Part shown: positions 10,843 to 19,368 of the stretch, in pieces | Layout of the letters: each line of letters begins with the position of its first letter | Position numbering within the stretch: position 1 is the stretch's first letter | Source of the DNA: an uncultured Spirochaetales bacterium | GTDB taxonomy: Bacteria; Spirochaetota; Spirochaetia; Sphaerochaetales; Sphaerochaetaceae | Direction of reading: 5' to 3' | Assembly (NCBI GenBank): GCA_944390045.1 | Contig: CALXOO010000005.1 | Location: 1-64,000, forward strand | DNA: 64,000 bases | Made by a program: the position numbers and the translations under genes | The notes under the pieces: model-generated | Seen by the model: the letters and a program-made list of their open reading frames with translations, nothing else | What the model was told of the DNA's origin: nothing | The model's database searches: none

Positions 10843-11460
10843 TCAGTCTGCCAGTACTTTCTTCTGCCAGCTCCTCCTGCCGCAGGAGGGGCATTTCATG
10901 TATCTGGTCGTTCCGATATGAGGCGCGATGAAGACTCTTGAGAAGCCAGGCACATAGCGTTTGTGACAGTACGCGCACTCGTACCAGCCAGTGTATGTCT
11001 CTATGGCCAGGGCCTGGATGACTCCACCCAGCAGGATGGCGAATGCCGCGATGCCGATGACTGTTCCAATGGCAGTGCTGAAGGCGGAGGCGACGAAAAC
11101 GGCGATGAGGAGCAGGGCCAGGAATGCGACAACCGCCAGAGCACCTACTGTCTTCTCTATCCTCATCAGCCTTCTGTTTGTCTCTTCTTCACGGCCTCGG
11201 AGTTCCACGATCAGCTCATCAGAGCGCCGCTGGCTGCCGCCGTCTTCGCTGTACTGTCCCAGCAGCAGCTCATTGACACTTATGCCAAGGATCTGACACA
11301 GCGGTATCATCAGCGATGCGTCCGGGAGGCAGAGCCCGCGTTCCCACTTGGATACTGCCCTGTCCGTGATCCCCAGCCTTTCTGCGAGCTGGACCTGCGT
11401 CAGTCCCTTGTCCTTTCTCCTTGCCGAGATGAATGCACCTGTTCTGGCCTGATCAATCAT
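10843..11460 (-). CDS. XRE-family regulator with membrane helices and C-terminal zinc ribbon
   Basis: The 205-residue protein has an N-terminal helix-turn-helix (about residues 4-60, ISARRKDKGLTQVQLAERLG...DRAVSKWERG), a charged linker, two hydrophobic helices (about 108-160) and a C-terminal four-cysteine ribbon (CAYCHKRY ... CPSCGRRSW). This layout of cytoplasmic DNA-binding domain tied to the membrane with a metal-binding tail is known from clostridial regulators of unknown signal. I use the ATG at 11460, preceded by GGAG at 6 bases, not the longer reading frame. It is divergent from the his operon, and its promoter region holds a TGCA dyad. Confidence 0.8.
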   Translation of the reverse strand: MIDQARTGAFISARRKDKGLTQVQLAERLGITDRAVSKWERGLCLPDASLMIPLCQILGISVNELLLGQYSEDGGSQRRSDELIVELRGREEETNRRLMRIEKTVGALAVVAFLALLLIAVFVASAFSTAIGTVIGIAAFAILLGGVIQALAIETYTGWYECAYCHKRYVPGFSRVFIAPHIGTTRYMKCPSCGRRSWQKKVLAD

Positions 11461-11534
11461 TCTTTTCTCCTGTCTGTGATTATTGACCGAAGGGCGGGAA
11501 AAGAAAACAAACTTATGGTTGAATGGCAGTCTTT

Positions 11535-11549
11535 TGCATATATTTTGCA
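11535..11549. promoter_or_regulatory. TGCA-N7-TGCA dyad between XRE gene and his operon
   Basis: TGCA TATATTT TGCA lies about 20 bases upstream of the his -35 box and inside the likely promoter of the XRE gene. Dyads of the same shape occur at both amino-acid binding-protein promoters (32515-32561 and 33424-33437), suggesting a shared repressor or activator, perhaps ArgR-like. Confidence 0.45.
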
Positions 11550-11567
11550 TAATAATTCAGATTTGTA

Positions 11568-11596
11568 TTGACCAAGTCTGCCAAGACAACTAAGAT
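11568..11596 (+). promoter_or_regulatory. Promoter of the histidine operon
   Basis: TTGACC (11568-11573) and TAAGAT (11591-11596) with 17-base spacing. Transcription would start near 11603, just ahead of the leader peptide. Confidence 0.7.
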
Positions 11597-11620
11597 TCAG
11601 GCAACAGGAGAAAAAAGGAA

Positions 11621-11665
11621 ATGACACTCAGGTCCCACCATCACCACAGGCTGACTCGGCAATAG
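11621..11665 (+). CDS. hisL: Histidine operon leader peptide
   Basis: This 14-codon open frame encodes MTLRSHHHHRLTRQ, with four consecutive histidine codons (CAC CAT CAC CAC, 11636-11647). AGGAG and AAGGA precede the ATG. It sits between a good promoter and a terminator in front of hisG. In enterobacteria a ribosome stalled on such His codons when charged tRNA-His is scarce prevents terminator formation, raising his expression. Everything needed for that mechanism is visible here. Confidence 0.88.
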   Translation: MTLRSHHHHRLTRQ

Positions 11666-11681
11666 CGGCATGGCAGGACTT

Positions 11682-11706
11682 GTCTATGATACCCCTCGTC
11701 ATGTAC
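11682..11706 (+). promoter_or_regulatory. Possible antiterminator hairpin of the his attenuator
   Basis: GTCTATGA (11682-11689) can pair with TCATGTAC (11699-11706), 7 of 8 positions counting one G-U. It would occupy part of the terminator stem-loop and so exclude the terminator. The pairing is weak and the switching order is inferred. Confidence 0.4.
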
Positions 11707-11721
11707 GGGGGATTTTTTTTT
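11690..11721 (+). terminator. Attenuator terminator of the his operon
   Basis: CCCCTCGT (11692-11699) pairs with ACGGGGG (11705-11711) over a 5-base loop and is followed by nine T residues (11713-11721). It lies between hisL and the hisG ribosome-binding site GGGAGGA, the position of an amino-acid attenuator. Confidence 0.85.
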
Positions 11722-11737
11722 ACCCGGGAGGAATGTT

Positions 11738-12607
11738 ATGGAGGAAAAGAGGCTCAGAATAGCGATCCAGAAAAGCGGAAGGCTCTCAGAGAAGAGTCTG
11801 GAGATCATCAGAAGCTGCGGCATTGACTTCAACTCGGATTCCAGAGTGCTCAGGGAGGTGGCCTCGAATTTTCCGCTTGAGTTCCTCTTCGTCCGCGATG
11901 ATGATATTCCGACCTATGTCGCGGACAATGTCGCGGATATCGGAATCGTGGGCCGCAATGAGCTGGATGAGTCAGGGTACGATCTGAATGTCGTGAGGGA
12001 TCTGGGCTTTGCCTCCTGCCGCCTCTCAATCGCTGTCCCCGGAGAATTCGAATACACCGGGCTGAAATGCCTGGAGGGAAAGAGAATCGCGACAAGCTAT
12101 CCCAGAATCCTTTCCTCAGTCCTAGAACGCAATGGTGTCAGTGCCAGTCTGGTCACTGTGGCCGGCAGCGTGGAGATCACGCCGGCAGTGGGAATAGCCG
12201 ACTGCATCTGTGATCTCGTGAGTACGGGAACCACGCTGAAGATGAACGGGCTGAAGGAGGTTGAGGAGATTTACTGGACCTCGGCCGTGATGATCAGCAG
12301 GCACGGCTTTGAAAGTGACGGTGAGCGATATGGCATCCTGAAGCGCCTTCTGCTGCGGATGGATACAGTGAACAACGCGAAGAAGAAAAAGTATGTGCTC
12401 TTCAATCTGCCTGCTGACCGCATAGACGAGGCTGCGGCGATTGTCGGAGGAATGAAGAGCCCGACAGTCACGCCTCTTCTGGACCGCAGCTGGGTCTCTG
12501 TCCAGTCAGTGGTCGCAGAAGACCGTTTCTGGTCAGTGTTCGAGGATCTCAGAGTCCTGGGCGCTGAGGGAATTCTCGTCATGCCGATCGAGAAGATGTC
12601 TGATTAG
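11738..12607 (+). CDS. hisG: ATP phosphoribosyltransferase, long form
   Basis: The 289-residue enzyme joins ATP and PRPP in the first, committed step of histidine synthesis. RIAIQKSGRLSEKS at residues 6-19 is the family N-terminus. The length and a C-terminal domain (about 215-289) place it in the long HisG form, which carries its own ACT-like regulatory domain for histidine feedback and needs no HisZ. GGGAGGA precedes the ATG. It is the first structural gene of the operon, just past the attenuator. Confidence 0.95.
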   Translation: MEEKRLRIAIQKSGRLSEKSLEIIRSCGIDFNSDSRVLREVASNFPLEFLFVRDDDIPTYVADNVADIGIVGRNELDESGYDLNVVRDLGFASCRLSIAVPGEFEYTGLKCLEGKRIATSYPRILSSVLERNGVSASLVTVAGSVEITPAVGIADCICDLVSTGTTLKMNGLKEVEEIYWTSAVMISRHGFESDGERYGILKRLLLRMDTVNNAKKKKYVLFNLPADRIDEAAAIVGGMKSPTVTPLLDRSWVSVQSVVAEDRFWSVFEDLRVLGAEGILVMPIEKMSD

Positions 12608-12621
12608 GAGGAAGGAGCGTC

Positions 12622-13914
12622 ATGTATCTCAGACTGTATGACAACCCGGATAAGGAAAGCTGGCTTCCGCTCCTTGAACGCGGACTTGGTGACGATGAGA
12701 GCGTAAGAAAGAGCGTGGAGGCGATAATCAGCGACGTCAGGGCCCGCGGTGATGAGGCACTCAGAGAGTACGAGAAGCGCTTTGACGGATCAGATCTTGA
12801 CAGCTTTCATGTCACTGAGCAGGAGTTTGACCGTGCTGAGGCCCTAGTCCCAGACGAGCTCAAGAAGGCGATCGGTACAGCCTATGAGAATATCAGGCGC
12901 TTTCATGAGGCCCAGCTGCCACACGGAGAGAGCGTCGAGACAATGCCCGGAGTCATGTGCTGGCGGAGGATTGTCCCAATCAGGCGTGTCGGACTCTATG
13001 TCCCCGGTGGAACGGCTCCGCTTTTCTCGACAGTGCTGATGCTGGCGGTTCCGGCGAAGGTCGCAGGCTGTGAGAGCATAACGCTGGCGACGCCGAGCCG
13101 GAATGGTGTTGTTAATCCTGCGGTGCTCTATGCGGCCCGCGTGTGCGGTGTTGATGATGTGGTGAAGCTCGGAGGAGCCCAGGCCATAGCCGCACTTGCC
13201 TGCGGAAGCGGGAGCATCGAGCCTGTTGATAAAATATTCGGGCCTGGAAACCGCTATGTTACGTTCGCCAAGAGCATCGTTTCCAGTTTCTGTGCCATCG
13301 ACATGCTGGCAGGTCCCAGCGAGGTCATGGTCGTGATGGACTCATCTGCCAGAGCGGATTATGTCGCAAGCGACCTGCTCAGCCAGGCAGAGCACGGTGC
13401 GGACAGTCAGGTGATTCTCATTATCAGGGCCGGGGACGCACAAGAGGGCAGGACAATGCATCAGGCGGTTGAGGAGGCTCTTGAGAAGGAGATCTCGCAC
13501 CTTGGCAGAAAGGACTACATGCTCTCATCACTTTCGCATTCATCGGCCATCATCGTTTATGACAATGAGAAGCTTGTGGATATTGTGAACAGCTATGCCC
13601 CTGAGCACCTGATCATCAATACGCGTGACTGTGATGAGCTGTGCGGGAAGGTCAGATCGGCAGGCTCGATCTTCCTGGGACCCTATTCTCCGGAGTCTGC
13701 GGGGGACTATGCTTCCGGAACCAATCACACGCTGCCGACATCAGGCTGGGCCCACAGCACCGGTGGTGTCTCGACAGACAGCTACATAAAGAAGATCACA
13801 GTGCAGAGACTGAGCCGCAGCGGACTGAGTTCCCTTGCCGATACCATTATGACAATGGCGGAGAACGAGGACCTGATGGCCCACGCCTATGCAGTGAAAG
13901 TGAGGAATACATGA
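12622..13914 (+). CDS. hisD: Histidinol dehydrogenase
   Basis: The 430-residue zinc enzyme oxidises L-histidinol to histidine in two NAD-dependent steps, the last reactions of the pathway. Family blocks are clear: GLYVPGG (about 128), the KIFGPGNRYV stretch (about 206), AGPSEV (about 230), SQAEHGADSQV (about 255) with zinc-site residues, and APEHL (about 325). GGAGGA precedes the ATG. It overlaps hisC by 4 bases. Confidence 0.97.
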   Translation: MYLRLYDNPDKESWLPLLERGLGDDESVRKSVEAIISDVRARGDEALREYEKRFDGSDLDSFHVTEQEFDRAEALVPDELKKAIGTAYENIRRFHEAQLPHGESVETMPGVMCWRRIVPIRRVGLYVPGGTAPLFSTVLMLAVPAKVAGCESITLATPSRNGVVNPAVLYAARVCGVDDVVKLGGAQAIAALACGSGSIEPVDKIFGPGNRYVTFAKSIVSSFCAIDMLAGPSEVMVVMDSSARADYVASDLLSQAEHGADSQVILIIRAGDAQEGRTMHQAVEEALEKEISHLGRKDYMLSSLSHSSAIIVYDNEKLVDIVNSYAPEHLIINTRDCDELCGKVRSAGSIFLGPYSPESAGDYASGTNHTLPTSGWAHSTGGVSTDSYIKKITVQRLSRSGLSSLADTIMTMAENEDLMAHAYAVKVRNT

Positions 13915-14960
13915 GTGTCAGGCATCTGATGAGGGAGAATATACAGAATCTCGAGCCGTACCGCTGTGCCCGTGATGAGGCAGGAGAAGGCCTGAGAATA
14001 TATCTGGATGCGAATGAGAACTATGCGCCGCTTGTTGACTGTGACGGAATCAACAGATATCCGGACAGTTCAAATCTCTGTGTAAGGAGGGCGGTTGAAT
14101 CGGTCTTCGGCTTTCCGTCTGACATGGTCTGTGCGGGAAACGGTTCAGATGAGCTTATTGACATACTGCTGCGCATTTTCTGCACCCCGGCAGTGGATTC
14201 AATTCTTGTCTTCCCGCCGACATATGGAGAGTACTCCGTACTGGCCTCGATCAACGATGTCAGAGTCATTGAATGTCCTCTTGAGAAGGATTTCTCCATC
14301 AACCTGGATCAGGCGCTCTCACTTATCAGGACACACCGGCCGAAACTGGTCTTCATCTGCTCACCGAACAACCCGACCGGGAATCTCTTCGACCGTGACG
14401 TTATCCTGACAATCGCACGCGAGAACCCTGCAGTGACAGTCGTGGACCAGGCCTATGTCGATTTCGCACCGCAGGGTGCCCTCACTCCTGCCGATGTCGA
14501 GGCCAATGAGCGTCTAGTCATCCTCCGCACACTTTCCAAGGCCTGGGCCCTGGCCGGCGCGAGAATCGGCTTCATGCTCTCATCCCGTGAGATCGCCTCG
14601 AAGTGCTATGATGTGAAATACCCCTACAACATTCCGCTCCCGTCACAGCGCGAGGCAGTGCTGGCGCTTTCCGGCCGGGAGGACTGCGAGATGAGAATCA
14701 GGACGATAATCGCCAGCAGAAAGAGTCTCATGGAGCGCATCAGCCGGCTTGCGGGGGTTGTTGAGGTGCTGGACAGCGACGCGAACTTCTTCCTGGTCCG
14801 TTTCAGGAATGCCGGTATGGTGTACAGTGAGCTGAAGCGCCGGGGTATTGTCGTGAGGGACCGGAGTTCCAATCTTCACTGTGAAGGCTGCCTCAGGATA
14901 ACGGTCGGCTCACCGCAGGAGTGCGATGAGCTTGTCAGAGCACTGGAGGAAATACTGTGA
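13911..14960 (+). CDS. hisC: Histidinol-phosphate aminotransferase
   Basis: The 349-residue PLP enzyme converts imidazole-acetol phosphate to histidinol phosphate. YLDANENY (about 25-32), SPNNPTGN (about 148-155) and the Schiff-base lysine in LRTLSKAWALAGARIG (about 208) are visible. I use the ATG at 13911, overlapping the hisD stop as ATGA; the open frame continues upstream inside hisD but that part has no HisC similarity. It overlaps hisB by 4 bases. Confidence 0.95.
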   Translation: MSVRHLMRENIQNLEPYRCARDEAGEGLRIYLDANENYAPLVDCDGINRYPDSSNLCVRRAVESVFGFPSDMVCAGNGSDELIDILLRIFCTPAVDSILVFPPTYGEYSVLASINDVRVIECPLEKDFSINLDQALSLIRTHRPKLVFICSPNNPTGNLFDRDVILTIARENPAVTVVDQAYVDFAPQGALTPADVEANERLVILRTLSKAWALAGARIGFMLSSREIASKCYDVKYPYNIPLPSQREAVLALSGREDCEMRIRTIIASRKSLMERISRLAGVVEVLDSDANFFLVRFRNAGMVYSELKRRGIVVRDRSSNLHCEGCLRITVGSPQECDELVRALEEIL

Positions 14961-16075
14961 GAAAGCTGCGGAAGGCTCTTTTTATTGACAGGGACGGCGT
15001 GATCGTCCGGGAAATGCAGGTTGACTCATATGAGAAGATTCACTTCATTCCACATGTCATTGAAGCATTGCGGGAGATCAGGCGCAGGACTGACTATGAG
15101 TTTGTGATGGTGTCGAATCAGGACGGTGTGGGCACTCCGTCCTTTCCGCTTGATGACTTCCTGCCTGTCCATGAGAAGATCATGGAGGTGCTTGATGGAG
15201 AGGATGTCGTTTTTGATGACGTGAACATCGACTACAGCCTGCCAGAGGACGGCTGTCCCGGGCGAAAGCCTGGCACCGCCATGCTGCAGTCTTATCTGGA
15301 CGGAGACTACGATCTCAAGGCTTCCTTCATGATCGGGGACAGGGCCACTGACATGGAACTGGCACGCCGTCTTGGCTGCCGCGGCATCTGGCTGCATGAC
15401 GGAACTGAATGTGGTGCCGGCATCGCGCTTGAGACTTCATCCTGGCTTGAGATCGCACGCTTTCTTACTGGAAGTGATAGGCCATTGGAGCACAGGACGG
15501 CCACAGTCGAACGCAGAACCGGGGAGACAGACATCAGCCTGAAACTGGATCTCGATGGCGGAGGTCACGGGTGCGTGGTGACCGGCATCGGTTTCTTTGA
15601 CCACATGCTGGACCAGATTGTCAGACATGGCCGCATAGGTCTGGAGGCCCGTCTTTCGGGAGACCTGCAGGTCGACGAGCATCACTCAGTCGAGGACTTC
15701 GCACTGGCACTGGGCCGTGCCTTCGCGCTGGCGCTGGGCGACAAGAAGGGAATCAACAGATATGGTTTCGACTTTCTCTGCATGGATGAGGTCAACTGCC
15801 GCTGTGCGGTCGACTTCTCAGGGCGGCCCTGTTTCACTTCAGGAGGGAGAATAACCCGTGACTATGTGGGTTCTTTCCCGACAGAGCTTGTACCTCATTT
15901 TTTCAAGTCCTTCTGTGATGAGGCCCGCTGCACACTCCACATCAGTGTTTCCAGGGGTAACGCCCATCACCAGGTGGAGGCCATGTTCAAGGCTTTTGCC
16001 AGAGCGCTGAGAATGGCTGTGAAAAGAGATCCCTCCTCAAATGAGATTCCATCCACCAAGGGGGTGCTTGAGTGA
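14957..16075 (+). CDS. hisB: Bifunctional histidinol-phosphatase / imidazoleglycerol-phosphate dehydratase
   Basis: The 372-residue protein fuses an N-terminal HAD phosphatase (FIDRDGVIV about 9-17, SNQDGVGT about 53-60, GDRATD about 130) to a C-terminal dehydratase (GIGFFDHMLDQ about 211-221, DEHHSVED about 241-248, HHQVEAMFKAFARALR near the end). It performs two non-consecutive steps of histidine synthesis. The zinc-loop residues of the E. coli phosphatase (pattern CPHxxxxxCxC) are mostly missing: the loop reads NIDYSLPEDGCPGRKP with one Cys. GTG start, 4-base overlaps on both sides. Fused hisB is typical of enterobacteria and some other groups. Confidence 0.95.
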   Translation: MRKLRKALFIDRDGVIVREMQVDSYEKIHFIPHVIEALREIRRRTDYEFVMVSNQDGVGTPSFPLDDFLPVHEKIMEVLDGEDVVFDDVNIDYSLPEDGCPGRKPGTAMLQSYLDGDYDLKASFMIGDRATDMELARRLGCRGIWLHDGTECGAGIALETSSWLEIARFLTGSDRPLEHRTATVERRTGETDISLKLDLDGGGHGCVVTGIGFFDHMLDQIVRHGRIGLEARLSGDLQVDEHHSVEDFALALGRAFALALGDKKGINRYGFDFLCMDEVNCRCAVDFSGRPCFTSGGRITRDYVGSFPTELVPHFFKSFCDEARCTLHISVSRGNAHHQVEAMFKAFARALRMAVKRDPSSNEIPSTKGVLE

Positions 16076-16662
16076 TAGCACTTGTAGACTACAGAGCTGG
16101 AAATGTCTTTTCTGTTACCAGTGCGCTGGAGAGGCTCGGGGCTGAAGTCGTGCTGACAAGCGATGCGGATGTAATACTCTCCGCAGACAGAGTCGTCTTC
16201 CCCGGCGTGGGATACGCGAAAAGCGCAATGGATGAGCTGGAGGCCCGCGGCCTGCTGCCGGTCCTGCGTGCGGTCAGACGTCCTTTCCTGGGTATCTGCC
16301 TTGGCATGCAGCTGATGTGCTCTCACAGTGATGAGGGGGATACAGGACTTATCGGAATTGTCGATGCCAGTGTGGAGCGCTTTGATGCAGGAGTCTGCCA
16401 GAAGATCCCACAGATCGGCTGGAACCGGATCCTCAGGCCACGCGGACCGTTGTTTGACGGCATCAGGGACGGCGAGTGGTTCTTCTTTGATCACTCCTAC
16501 TATGTGCCGCTGCTTGGTGATGCGACTGTCTGTGAGACAGAATATTACGGTTTCGAATACACCTCCGCGCTGGGAGTGGACAACTTCTACGGTGTCCAGT
16601 TTCATCCTGAGAAAAGCGGAAAGGCTGGCGAGAGGCTGCTTGCGAACTTCCTGGAGCTCTGA
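16072..16662 (+). CDS. hisH: Imidazole glycerol phosphate synthase, glutaminase subunit
   Basis: The 196-residue class I glutamine amidotransferase supplies ammonia to HisF. The nucleophile motif LGICLGMQLM (about 73-82) and the C-terminal catalytic His/Glu in VQFHPEKSG (about 178) are present, as is DYRAGNVFSV at the start. It begins at GTG overlapping the hisB stop, and hisA follows 2 bases after its stop. Confidence 0.96.
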   Translation: MIALVDYRAGNVFSVTSALERLGAEVVLTSDADVILSADRVVFPGVGYAKSAMDELEARGLLPVLRAVRRPFLGICLGMQLMCSHSDEGDTGLIGIVDASVERFDAGVCQKIPQIGWNRILRPRGPLFDGIRDGEWFFFDHSYYVPLLGDATVCETEYYGFEYTSALGVDNFYGVQFHPEKSGKAGERLLANFLEL

Positions 16663-16664
16663 AT

Positions 16665-17393
16665 ATGGAAATAATACCGGCAATCGATCTGATAGATGGA
16701 AAGTGTGTTCGCCTTACGAAAGGCGATTACGGTACCGCCAGGACATACGCTGATGACCCGCTGGAGCAGGCAAAGGCCTTTGAGGGTGCCGGTCTGAGAC
16801 GGCTGCATCTTGTCGATCTGGACGGTGCAAGGGAAAAAAGACCGTGCAATCTGTCTGTCCTGGAAAAGTTGGCATCGCTTACCAATCTGGTAATTGATTA
16901 TGGCGGAGGGATGTACTCCCGATCTTCCCTCGAGTCAGCCTTTTCAGCTGGTGCCACTTATGTGACCTGCGGATCCATGGCAGTGAAGAATCCTGAAGAA
17001 GCATCCTCCTGCTTCGCTTCCTTCCCGGACAGAATGATCCTCGGTGCTGACTGCGTGAACGGCCGTATCGCAGTGGGTGCCTGGACAGAAGAGAGCGGGA
17101 TTGATGCAGTGGACTTCATCAGGCAATGGAGCGGACGTGGAGCCCGCTGCTGCATTTCGACTGATGTGTCGAAGGACGGAACCCTTGCCGGCCCGGGCTT
17201 CGGCCTTTATTCGCGGATACTTGAATCATGTGACATCGCGCTCATCGCCTCCGGCGGGGTGTCGGGCGTTGATGATCTTTATGCCCTGGCAGACCTCGGC
17301 ATGTATGGAGCGATTGTCGGCAAGGCGTACTACGAGGGCCGGATAGGGCTTAAGGAACTTGGGGAGGCTGCAGAGTGCTTGCGAAAAGGATAA
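16665..17393 (+). CDS. hisA: ProFAR isomerase
   Basis: The 242-residue TIM-barrel enzyme isomerises the ProFAR aminoaldose to [19 protein letters not shown] (about 3-16) contains the catalytic Asp, a second catalytic Asp lies in [14 protein letters not shown] (about 165), and phosphate-binding glycines occur in DYGGGMYS and ASGGVSG. It overlaps hisF by 19 bases. Confidence 0.96.
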
Positions 17394-18142
17394 TTCCGTG
17401 TCTGGACATCAAGGACGGGCGCACAGTGAAGGGTATCAACTTCCTGAACCTGAAGGATGCCGGAGATCCTGTTGAGAATGCGGTGCGCTATTGCGAGGAA
17501 GGTGCTGACGAGCTGGTCTTTCTTGACATAACTGCCACAGTGGAGCGACGTGAGCCCCTTTCTGCCCTGGTCAGGAGAATAGCCAGGAATATCAACATAC
17601 CATTCACTGTCGGCGGTGGGATCAGGACCGTTGAGGATGTCCAGTCCATTCTCACCAGTGGAGCGGACAAGGTCTCCATCAACAGTCAGGCCGTGCGCAA
17701 TCCCTCACTGATAAGCGGCTCGTCATCCCGTTTCGGCGCACAGTGCATGGTTGTTGCCATTGATGCTAGGGCCAATGCCGCTATGAAGAGCGGATACGAG
17801 GTCTGTGTGGATGGGGGCAGGACGCCGGCAGGACTGGATGTCCTTGACTGGGCTCTGGAGGTCCAGGATCTGGGAGCCGGAGAAATACTGCTGACAAGCA
17901 TGGAAGCTGACGGGACAAGAAACGGTTATGACATCGGCATAACAGCACTTCTTTCAAAGAGCCTGCATATCCCGGTGATCGCTTCCGGCGGTGCCGGCAG
18001 ACCAGAGGACTTCGCAAGAGTCTTCGGCCCTGAATGCGGTGCAGATGCTGCTCTTGCCGCAAGTGTCTTTCACTATCATGAGATAGGAATCGGGGAACTC
18101 AAAGCCTATTTACAAAGAGCCGCAATTACTGTTAGGGTATGA
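17375..18142 (+). CDS. hisF: Imidazole glycerol phosphate synthase, cyclase subunit
   Basis: The 255-residue TIM barrel closes the imidazole ring using ammonia from HisH, yielding imidazole glycerol phosphate and [19 protein letters not shown] (about 6-19) carries the catalytic Asp, FTVGGGIR (about 73) and [11 protein letters not shown] (about 205) bind phosphates. The GTG start lies within hisA, a 19-base overlap that suggests coupled translation. Confidence 0.96.
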
Positions 18143-18172
18143 GGCTATCCACAATAAAACACAGGATGGCTT

Positions 18173-18781
18173 ATGGCGATAGACTTTGAGAAGGGAGATG
18201 GACTGGTTCCTGCCATTGTACAAGATGCTGTTACCCACAGAGTGCTGATGCTCGGATACATGAATGCCGAGGCCTATCAGCTCACGCTTGACCGCGGACT
18301 TGTGACCTTCTGGTCACGCTCCAGGGGCAGGATCTGGACAAAGGGAGAGACAAGCGGAAACTTTCTCCAGGTGCGCGAAATCCTCACTGACTGTGACAAT
18401 GACACTCTTCTGGTCAAGGCCATTCCCTCCGGTCCGGTCTGCCATACCGGGGCTGACACCTGCTTCAACGAGGATAATGAGCCGGGTGAGATGACCAGCA
18501 CTGAATTCCTTGTATATCTTGAGGATGTCATCGCGGACAGAAGAAACAATCCCCAGGAGGGAAGCTATACCAACCATCTGTTCAGCCGTGGACTCAACAA
18601 GATAGCCCAGAAGGTCGGAGAAGAGGCAGTGGAGCTCATCATTGCCAGCAAGGATGACAATAAGGAGCTCTTCCTCGGGGAAGCTGCTGATCTGATGTAT
18701 CATTTTCTTGTGCTGCTTGCACAGAAAGACACTAGACTTGCTGAGGTCGTTGACGTGCTGAAGGGCCGCCATTCCCGCTGA
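18173..18781 (+). CDS. hisI: Bifunctional phosphoribosyl-AMP cyclohydrolase / phosphoribosyl-ATP pyrophosphatase
   Basis: The 202-residue HisIE fusion carries out steps 2 and 3 of histidine synthesis. The HisI half (to about residue 110) has [19 protein letters not shown] and the zinc-site motif CHTGADTCF; the HisE half has [24 protein letters not shown] with the acidic pyrophosphatase helices. It lies 30 bases after hisF and its stop overlaps the next ATG by one base. Confidence 0.95.
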
Positions 18782-19368
18782 TGCTTTCCAGTCTTGCGGA
18801 TGACGGTTCCATACAGTGGCAGACAGCGGAAGGCCTTGAGTCTTCCGGAGAAGACCTGAGTGGCCTGTCTGTCAGCGATTCTTCTTTCTCCAGCTGCACT
18901 TTTTCATCCTGCACCTTCGACTCAGCCGCCTTTTCCAGTTCTGTGTTTGAGGACTGCGACTTCTCTTCATCCTCAATGGAAGGAATTCACATCACTTCAT
19001 GCCGTTTCCTCCGCTGTTCTTTCAGGGGAACAATGCTGACCGCTGCCGCAGTGAGAGGATCATCGTTCTCTGACTGCTTCATGCAGTATTCGTCATTCAG
19101 CCAGGCCGCTGTGCAGAAAACTGTCTTTTCCGGCTGCAATCTTGTTGAGGCAGACTTTTCTGATCTGAAATGCAGGGATCTGAGTCTTGTCTCATGCAGG
19201 CTGGAGCGAGCGGCTTTCATGCGTACGAGGCTCAGGGATATCGACCTGGCCTCAAGCGACCTTACCTCACTCTTCATCAGTGACAATCTGGCAGAACTCA
19301 GGGGTGCCAGGCTTGATCTTGACCAGTGGATACAGCTGGCCGGGCTTCTTCAGATACGACTCCGCTGA
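18781..19368 (+). CDS. Pentapeptide-repeat protein
   Basis: The 195-residue protein is almost wholly built of five-residue repeats with a central Phe/Leu (for example SFSSC, TFSSC, TFDSA, DFSSS, RFLRC, NLVEA), predicting a right-handed four-sided beta helix. It is rich in Ser and Cys. The short C-terminal segment LDLDQWIQLAGLLQIRLR resembles the tail of Qnr/MfpA-like members, some of which bind DNA gyrase. No catalytic function can be read. It starts in the last base of the hisI stop, so it is the last gene of the his operon, an unusual location. Confidence 0.85.
   Translation: MLSSLADDGSIQWQTAEGLESSGEDLSGLSVSDSSFSSCTFSSCTFDSAAFSSSVFEDCDFSSSSMEGIHITSCRFLRCSFRGTMLTAAAVRGSSFSDCFMQYSSFSQAAVQKTVFSGCNLVEADFSDLKCRDLSLVSCRLERAAFMRTRLRDIDLASSDLTSLFISDNLAELRGARLDLDQWIQLAGLLQIRLR

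Follow-up and report, generated by a model that had tools for sequence, protein, structure and literature searches.

The histidine biosynthesis operon hisGDC[NB]HAF[IE] of an uncultured Spirochaetales bacterium (family Sphaerochaetaceae), which lies in the 64,000-nt stretch of DNA analysed here (the window), is preceded by what we consider, with a probability of about 93%, to be a ribosome-mediated transcription attenuator. Its leader RNA, ~120 nt in length, carries a short His-rich ORF predicted to be translated and, between this ORF and hisG, a hairpin predicted to terminate transcription (Table 1). Ribosome-mediated his attenuation had been proposed for this site in an earlier note made from the sequence of the window, and comparison with relatives (recurrence of the leaders, co-variation of their predicted helices and spacing of their parts) supports the proposal well. 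Classical histidine attenuation is thereby placed in a phylum for which we found no description of it, and the operon type, not accident, would explain its presence there.

Table 1. Predicted attenuator and his operon in the window (positions counted from its first nucleotide)
Feature	Position	Strand	Basis or detail
Sigma-70-type promoter TTGACC-N17-TAAGAT	11568-11596	+	9/12 consensus matches; TTGACC from 11568, TAAGAT to 11596
Shine-Dalgarno AGGAG for the leader ORF	11606-11610	+	Sequence; present in all 8 leadered members of the window's clade
Leader peptide ORF MTLRSHHHHRLTRQ (14 codons, stop TAG)	11621-11665	+	Sequence and relatives
Four His codons CAC CAT CAC CAC, inferred stall site	11636-11647	+	Sequence
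Segment 1, partner of 11670-11682 without a ribosome (hairpin 1:2)	11629-11641	+	Predicted fold
Segment 2, antiterminator 5′ arm	11668-11677	+	Predicted fold, co-variation, spacing across leaders
Segment 3, antiterminator 3′ arm; overlaps terminator 5′ arm and loop	11694-11704	+	Predicted fold, co-variation
Terminator stem-loop, 7 pairs, loop CAUGU	11693-11711	+	Predicted fold and relatives
T9 run of the predicted intrinsic terminator	11713-11721	+	Sequence
hisG, long form with catalytic and C-terminal regulatory domains	11738-12607	+	TIGR00070, TIGR03455; ATG at 11738
Remaining his operon	12622-18781	+	hisD 12622, hisC 13917, hisNB 14957, hisH 16072, hisA 16665, hisF 17375, hisIE 18173-18781

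Anatomy and predicted folding of the leader

The promoter, the 14-codon leader with its run of four His codons and the terminator with nine T residues ahead of hisG had all been described in the earlier note, and each was found as described (Table 1). Transcription of the leader would start near 11603, and the ORF reads ATG ACA CTC AGG TCC CAC CAT CAC CAC AGG CTG ACT CGG CAA TAG, with the stop codon beginning at 11663. Folding with and without the leader, which had been suggested as a check, yielded the classical three states, the predicted structures switching when either the leader or segment 2 was masked. In the full transcript, 11629-11635 pairs with 11676-11682 and 11638-11641 with 11670-11673 to give hairpin 1:2, and the terminator is present. 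With the leader masked by folding from 11660 or 11666, GCAUGGCAGG of segment 2 pairs with segment 3 and the terminator is lost, while folding from 11680, which masks segment 2, restores the terminator at -10.6 kcal/mol. The alternative hairpin had been misplaced at 11682-11706, an interval covering only the inner part of this antiterminator. Equilibrium folding of the finished transcript was in itself uninformative for a kinetic switch.

From these features we infer a course of events in which ribosome stalling, termination and a response to histidine would be linked in the classical manner. RNA polymerase would start at the promoter, and the leader peptide would be translated as the RNA emerges. 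When charged tRNA-His is scarce, the ribosome would stall within the His codons and keep segment 1 from pairing, so that segment 2 could pair with segment 3 before the 3′ arm of the terminator exists and transcription would enter hisG. When histidine is plentiful, the ribosome would proceed to the stop codon, its footprint would lie over segment 2, and segment 3 would be free to form the terminator, ending transcription in the T9 run. Should the leader not be translated at all, hairpin 1:2 would sequester segment 2 and the terminator would likewise form.

Taken alone, the single sequence is weak evidence, because both its terminator-like sites (1 found in 1.5 kb versus 1.0 expected) and its fold energy (z +0.20, no more stable than shuffles) are at the chance level. 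The inverted-repeat finder returned nothing at the attenuator, because the stems contain G-U pairs. It could accordingly be argued that the His-rich ORF arose by chance or encodes a short functional protein, that the hairpin is an ordinary terminator and that the promoter alone sets his expression. The position of the terminator between promoter and hisG speaks against this explanation, and the combination of parts is rare: the 2.0-Mb genome contains four consecutive His codons 15 times, only in the attenuator do they sit in a short ATG ORF with a GC-rich terminator downstream, and within the window the attenuator is the only credible unit of this kind. The reality of the observation is confirmed by comparison with relatives, in which three features conflict with this explanation, namely retention of the His run and terminator in 61 of 62 loci while the other peptide residues vary, a fixed distance from the His codons to the antiterminator, and a co-varying alternative helix. 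We therefore regard it as very improbable.

Conservation, co-variation and spacing among relatives

In 40 of the 40 relatives compared, the region before hisG contains a His leader and then a hairpin with a T-rich tail, and the His run is the only part of the peptide common to all of them, the remainder varying widely. Absence of the His run and terminator from close relatives had been named in advance as an outcome that would speak against attenuation; both are present. A wider set, which includes some near-copies of one another, comprises the loci with the same HisG type as the window and covers Sphaerochaetaceae plus four more families of the class (coded f3, f4, f5 and f17); here the leader is found in 61 of 62 Spirochaetota loci. 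The sole locus lacking it is L202 (G269:C8), in which another ORF runs almost up to hisG. Among Spirochaetota loci with a short-form or divergent HisG (16, L112-L127, plus 4, L219-L222), a run of three His codons was found upstream in 0 of 20, and in many of them other coding sequence extends up to hisG. Judged from these sequences, operons of this type in Sphaerochaetaceae and four other families carry the predicted attenuator as a rule, and it is no oddity of one genome.

The conserved stem also bears on the way in which leader translation might act. Translation of the leader could control translation of hisG or the access of Rho, with no intrinsic termination involved, and translational attenuators of that sort do exist (PMC9413887). 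This arrangement is highly unlikely here, given that every relative examined has a stem with a T-rich tail ahead of hisG and that, in the window, the hisG Shine-Dalgarno sequence (11726-11732) lies outside the stem.

A switch between antiterminator and terminator is favoured by the pairing patterns across leaders. In the predicted folds the two structures are mutually exclusive, with support from co-variation. Across 33 non-redundant leaders, duplexes of segment 2 with its native segment 3 have a mean energy of -11.67 kcal/mol, versus -9.22 kcal/mol (sd 0.39) for permuted partners, and none of 20,000 partner permutations was as good as the native pairing, a test that kinship among the sequences inflates. 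Likewise, the 5′ arm and loop of the terminator pair with the linker better than with dinucleotide-shuffled linkers. Thus, the two predicted segments change together across leaders. The antiterminator prediction is poor in a few of them (L002, L027, L038, L040 and L043). Pairing between segment 2 and the leader, as in the hairpin 1:2 predicted in the window, is modestly stronger than in shuffles (33 leaders).

The distance between the His codons and the antiterminator is nearly fixed in these leaders. Counted from the first nucleotide of the last His codon, pairing in segment 2 begins a median of 22 nt downstream, with a median absolute deviation of 1 compared to 9 for shuffles, and 0 of 200 shuffle rounds were as tight; relative to the stop codon, the start of segment 2 ranges from -12 to +14 nt. 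The window itself has 23 nt from the last His codon and 5 from the stop codon. A ribosome whose A site holds the last His codon shields about 12-15 nt of the RNA downstream, so segment 2 would be free during a stall at the His codons, while a ribosome at the stop codon would reach segment 2 or its edge in all leaders, with borderline cases at +12 to +14. This geometry is what ribosome-mediated attenuation requires. With so many divergent copies, the 22 nt from the last His codon to the antiterminator represent a measured ruler by which models of attenuation can be constrained.

A third type of explanation is that histidine is sensed by a T-box, by a riboswitch or by a repressor that binds DNA, such as the helix-turn-helix (HTH) protein encoded at 10843-11550, whose gene adjoins the his promoter in divergent orientation; in Firmicutes, his genes are indeed under T-boxes and the HisR repressor (PMC9413887). 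Rfam searches, whether at the gathering score or with E values up to 10, placed neither a his leader nor a T-box nor any other known element on the attenuator, a leader of this length is too short for a T-box, and the conserved element is the His run. We consider this explanation extremely unlikely.

Origin of the operon and initiation at the leader ORF

The earlier note had called a complete his attenuator unexpected in a genome of spirochaetal appearance. The classical parts are all there, but they are not isolated, being the rule for the operon type in five families, and the surprise is largely explained because the operon has the layout known from E. coli and Bacteroidota, sharing their gene order and fusion pattern with bifunctional hisNB and hisIE. 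According to the literature, the hisNB fusion is of gammaproteobacterial origin and may have spread together with the operon; it was present in all 72 Bacteroidetes of the study concerned (PMC8305728), and a 2007 survey recorded it in none of its four spirochaetes (PMC1963479). In our HisG tree, for which gammaproteobacterial HisG was limited to E. coli, the 36 long-form sequences from spirochaetes, each of which has a leader, cluster together (SH-aLRT 90) next to Bacteroidota. Since His leaders before hisG are frequent in Bacteroidota too, the operon type probably entered spirochaetes together with its attenuator, which is the simplest reading of these sequences. The spirochaetal attenuators could not be shown to be homologous in sequence to the others.

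Initiation at the leader ORF appears to differ among these lineages. The pattern TTGAC-N16..18-xAxxxT was recognized upstream of 58 of 61 His leaders of relatives. In 48 of these 58, the -10 hexamer ends 6 nt (40 leaders), 7 nt (7) or 8 nt (1) before the start codon, and at a distance of 6 nt position +1 falls on the A of the ATG; the leaders with short distances are listed as L008-L014, L016-L030, L040, L042-L044, L046, L055 and L200-L225. None of the 48 leaders with 6-8 nt has a Shine-Dalgarno sequence, and their start codon is ATG, or GTG in L217. As their promoters suggest, most spirochaetal his leaders are thus probably leaderless. In the clade of the window, by comparison, the -10 hexamer of the eight leadered members lies 19-35 nt from the start codon and a Shine-Dalgarno sequence is present in 8 of 8; L111 (32 nt) and L018 (10 nt) are without a clear one. 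Because three changes suffice on the tree (in L111, in the window's clade and in L008 inside that clade), the 5′ UTR and Shine-Dalgarno sequence of the window look derived.

Taken together, we find it likely, though well short of certain, that Spirochaetota contain a lineage with his attenuation by leaderless leader peptides, in which operon and attenuator crossed phyla together and the window's clade secondarily gained a 5′ UTR and a Shine-Dalgarno sequence. If true, this would provide a natural series for the retuning of translation initiation in an attenuator, and the apparent leaderless majority next to a derived Shine-Dalgarno clade offers a way to ask how the mode of initiation affects ribosome-polymerase coupling.

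Known attenuators and other leaders in the genus

Among the closest known systems is the his attenuator of E. coli and Salmonella (hisL, RF00514 His_leader), with which the window shares the operon layout, a peptide with a His run and competing antiterminator and terminator structures before hisG; however, the window has four His codons where theirs has seven, its leader RNA is shorter and no sequence match exists. Indeed, a search with RF00514 scored E. coli at 131.6 bits, so the positive control passed, and matched 0 of 19 other loci and none of the spirochaete leaders searched, the window attenuator giving no match at the gathering score; beyond the group on which it is built, the model fails to pick up his leaders. 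Upstream of a related hisG, many of the closest loci from outside the spirochaetes, which belong to Bacteroidota, have an ORF with a His run and then a hairpin and a T run, although these leader sequences are not alignable with the spirochaetal ones. Structured 5′ elements upstream of hisG were reported from Flavobacteriaceae (PMC9723704). Candidate his attenuators with three to five His codons, a terminator and an antiterminator were predicted in Firmicutes (Rodionov et al. 2022; PMC9413887), but these concern another phylum and operon type, namely the B. cereus group, Peptostreptococcaceae and Erysipelotrichales.

Attenuator ORFs with their AUG at the very 5′ end of the transcript are described for S. 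meliloti trpL, S. lividans leuL, trpL and ilvL and mycobacterial poly-Cys ORFs (PMC7298713; PMC8079986; Canestrari 2020 cited in PMC13236596). They resemble the probable form of most spirochaetal his leaders but serve other amino acids in other phyla, whereas the leader in the window is not leaderless. Our literature search found no earlier his attenuator in spirochaetes; an earlier report is possible, the attenuation surveys of 2004 and 2010 having been outside the reach of this search.

Other leaders of the attenuator type occur in the genus of the window. Ile/Leu/Val-rich leader ORFs with a Shine-Dalgarno sequence, followed by a hairpin and a T run, precede ilvN-ilvC-leuA (L226-L231), and the branched-chain leader of the window's own genome (L226; G000:C33, near 22 kb) encodes MRKTYKTSVPSMPPLAISSLLIALLIGN. 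The motifs ACCACGG and CCGTGGT in the ilvN-ilvC leader are able to pair as an antiterminator. With such a leader before ilvN-ilvC, classical attenuation in these bacteria probably extends beyond the his operon. Most genomes of the genus (G000-G015) have retained his, ilv and leu genes. A full trpE was found in none of these genomes, the window's own included, and a partial match in G003 only, so there is no trp leader for comparison.

The divergent gene beside the his promoter (10843-11550, minus strand) encodes a protein with a Cys-rich C-terminus and, at the N-terminus, an HTH domain that weakly matches repressors of the RstR/DicA type. At the other end, an ORF at 18781-19368 (plus strand) shares its first base with the end of the hisIE stop codon, and its repeats look like those of a pentapeptide-repeat protein.
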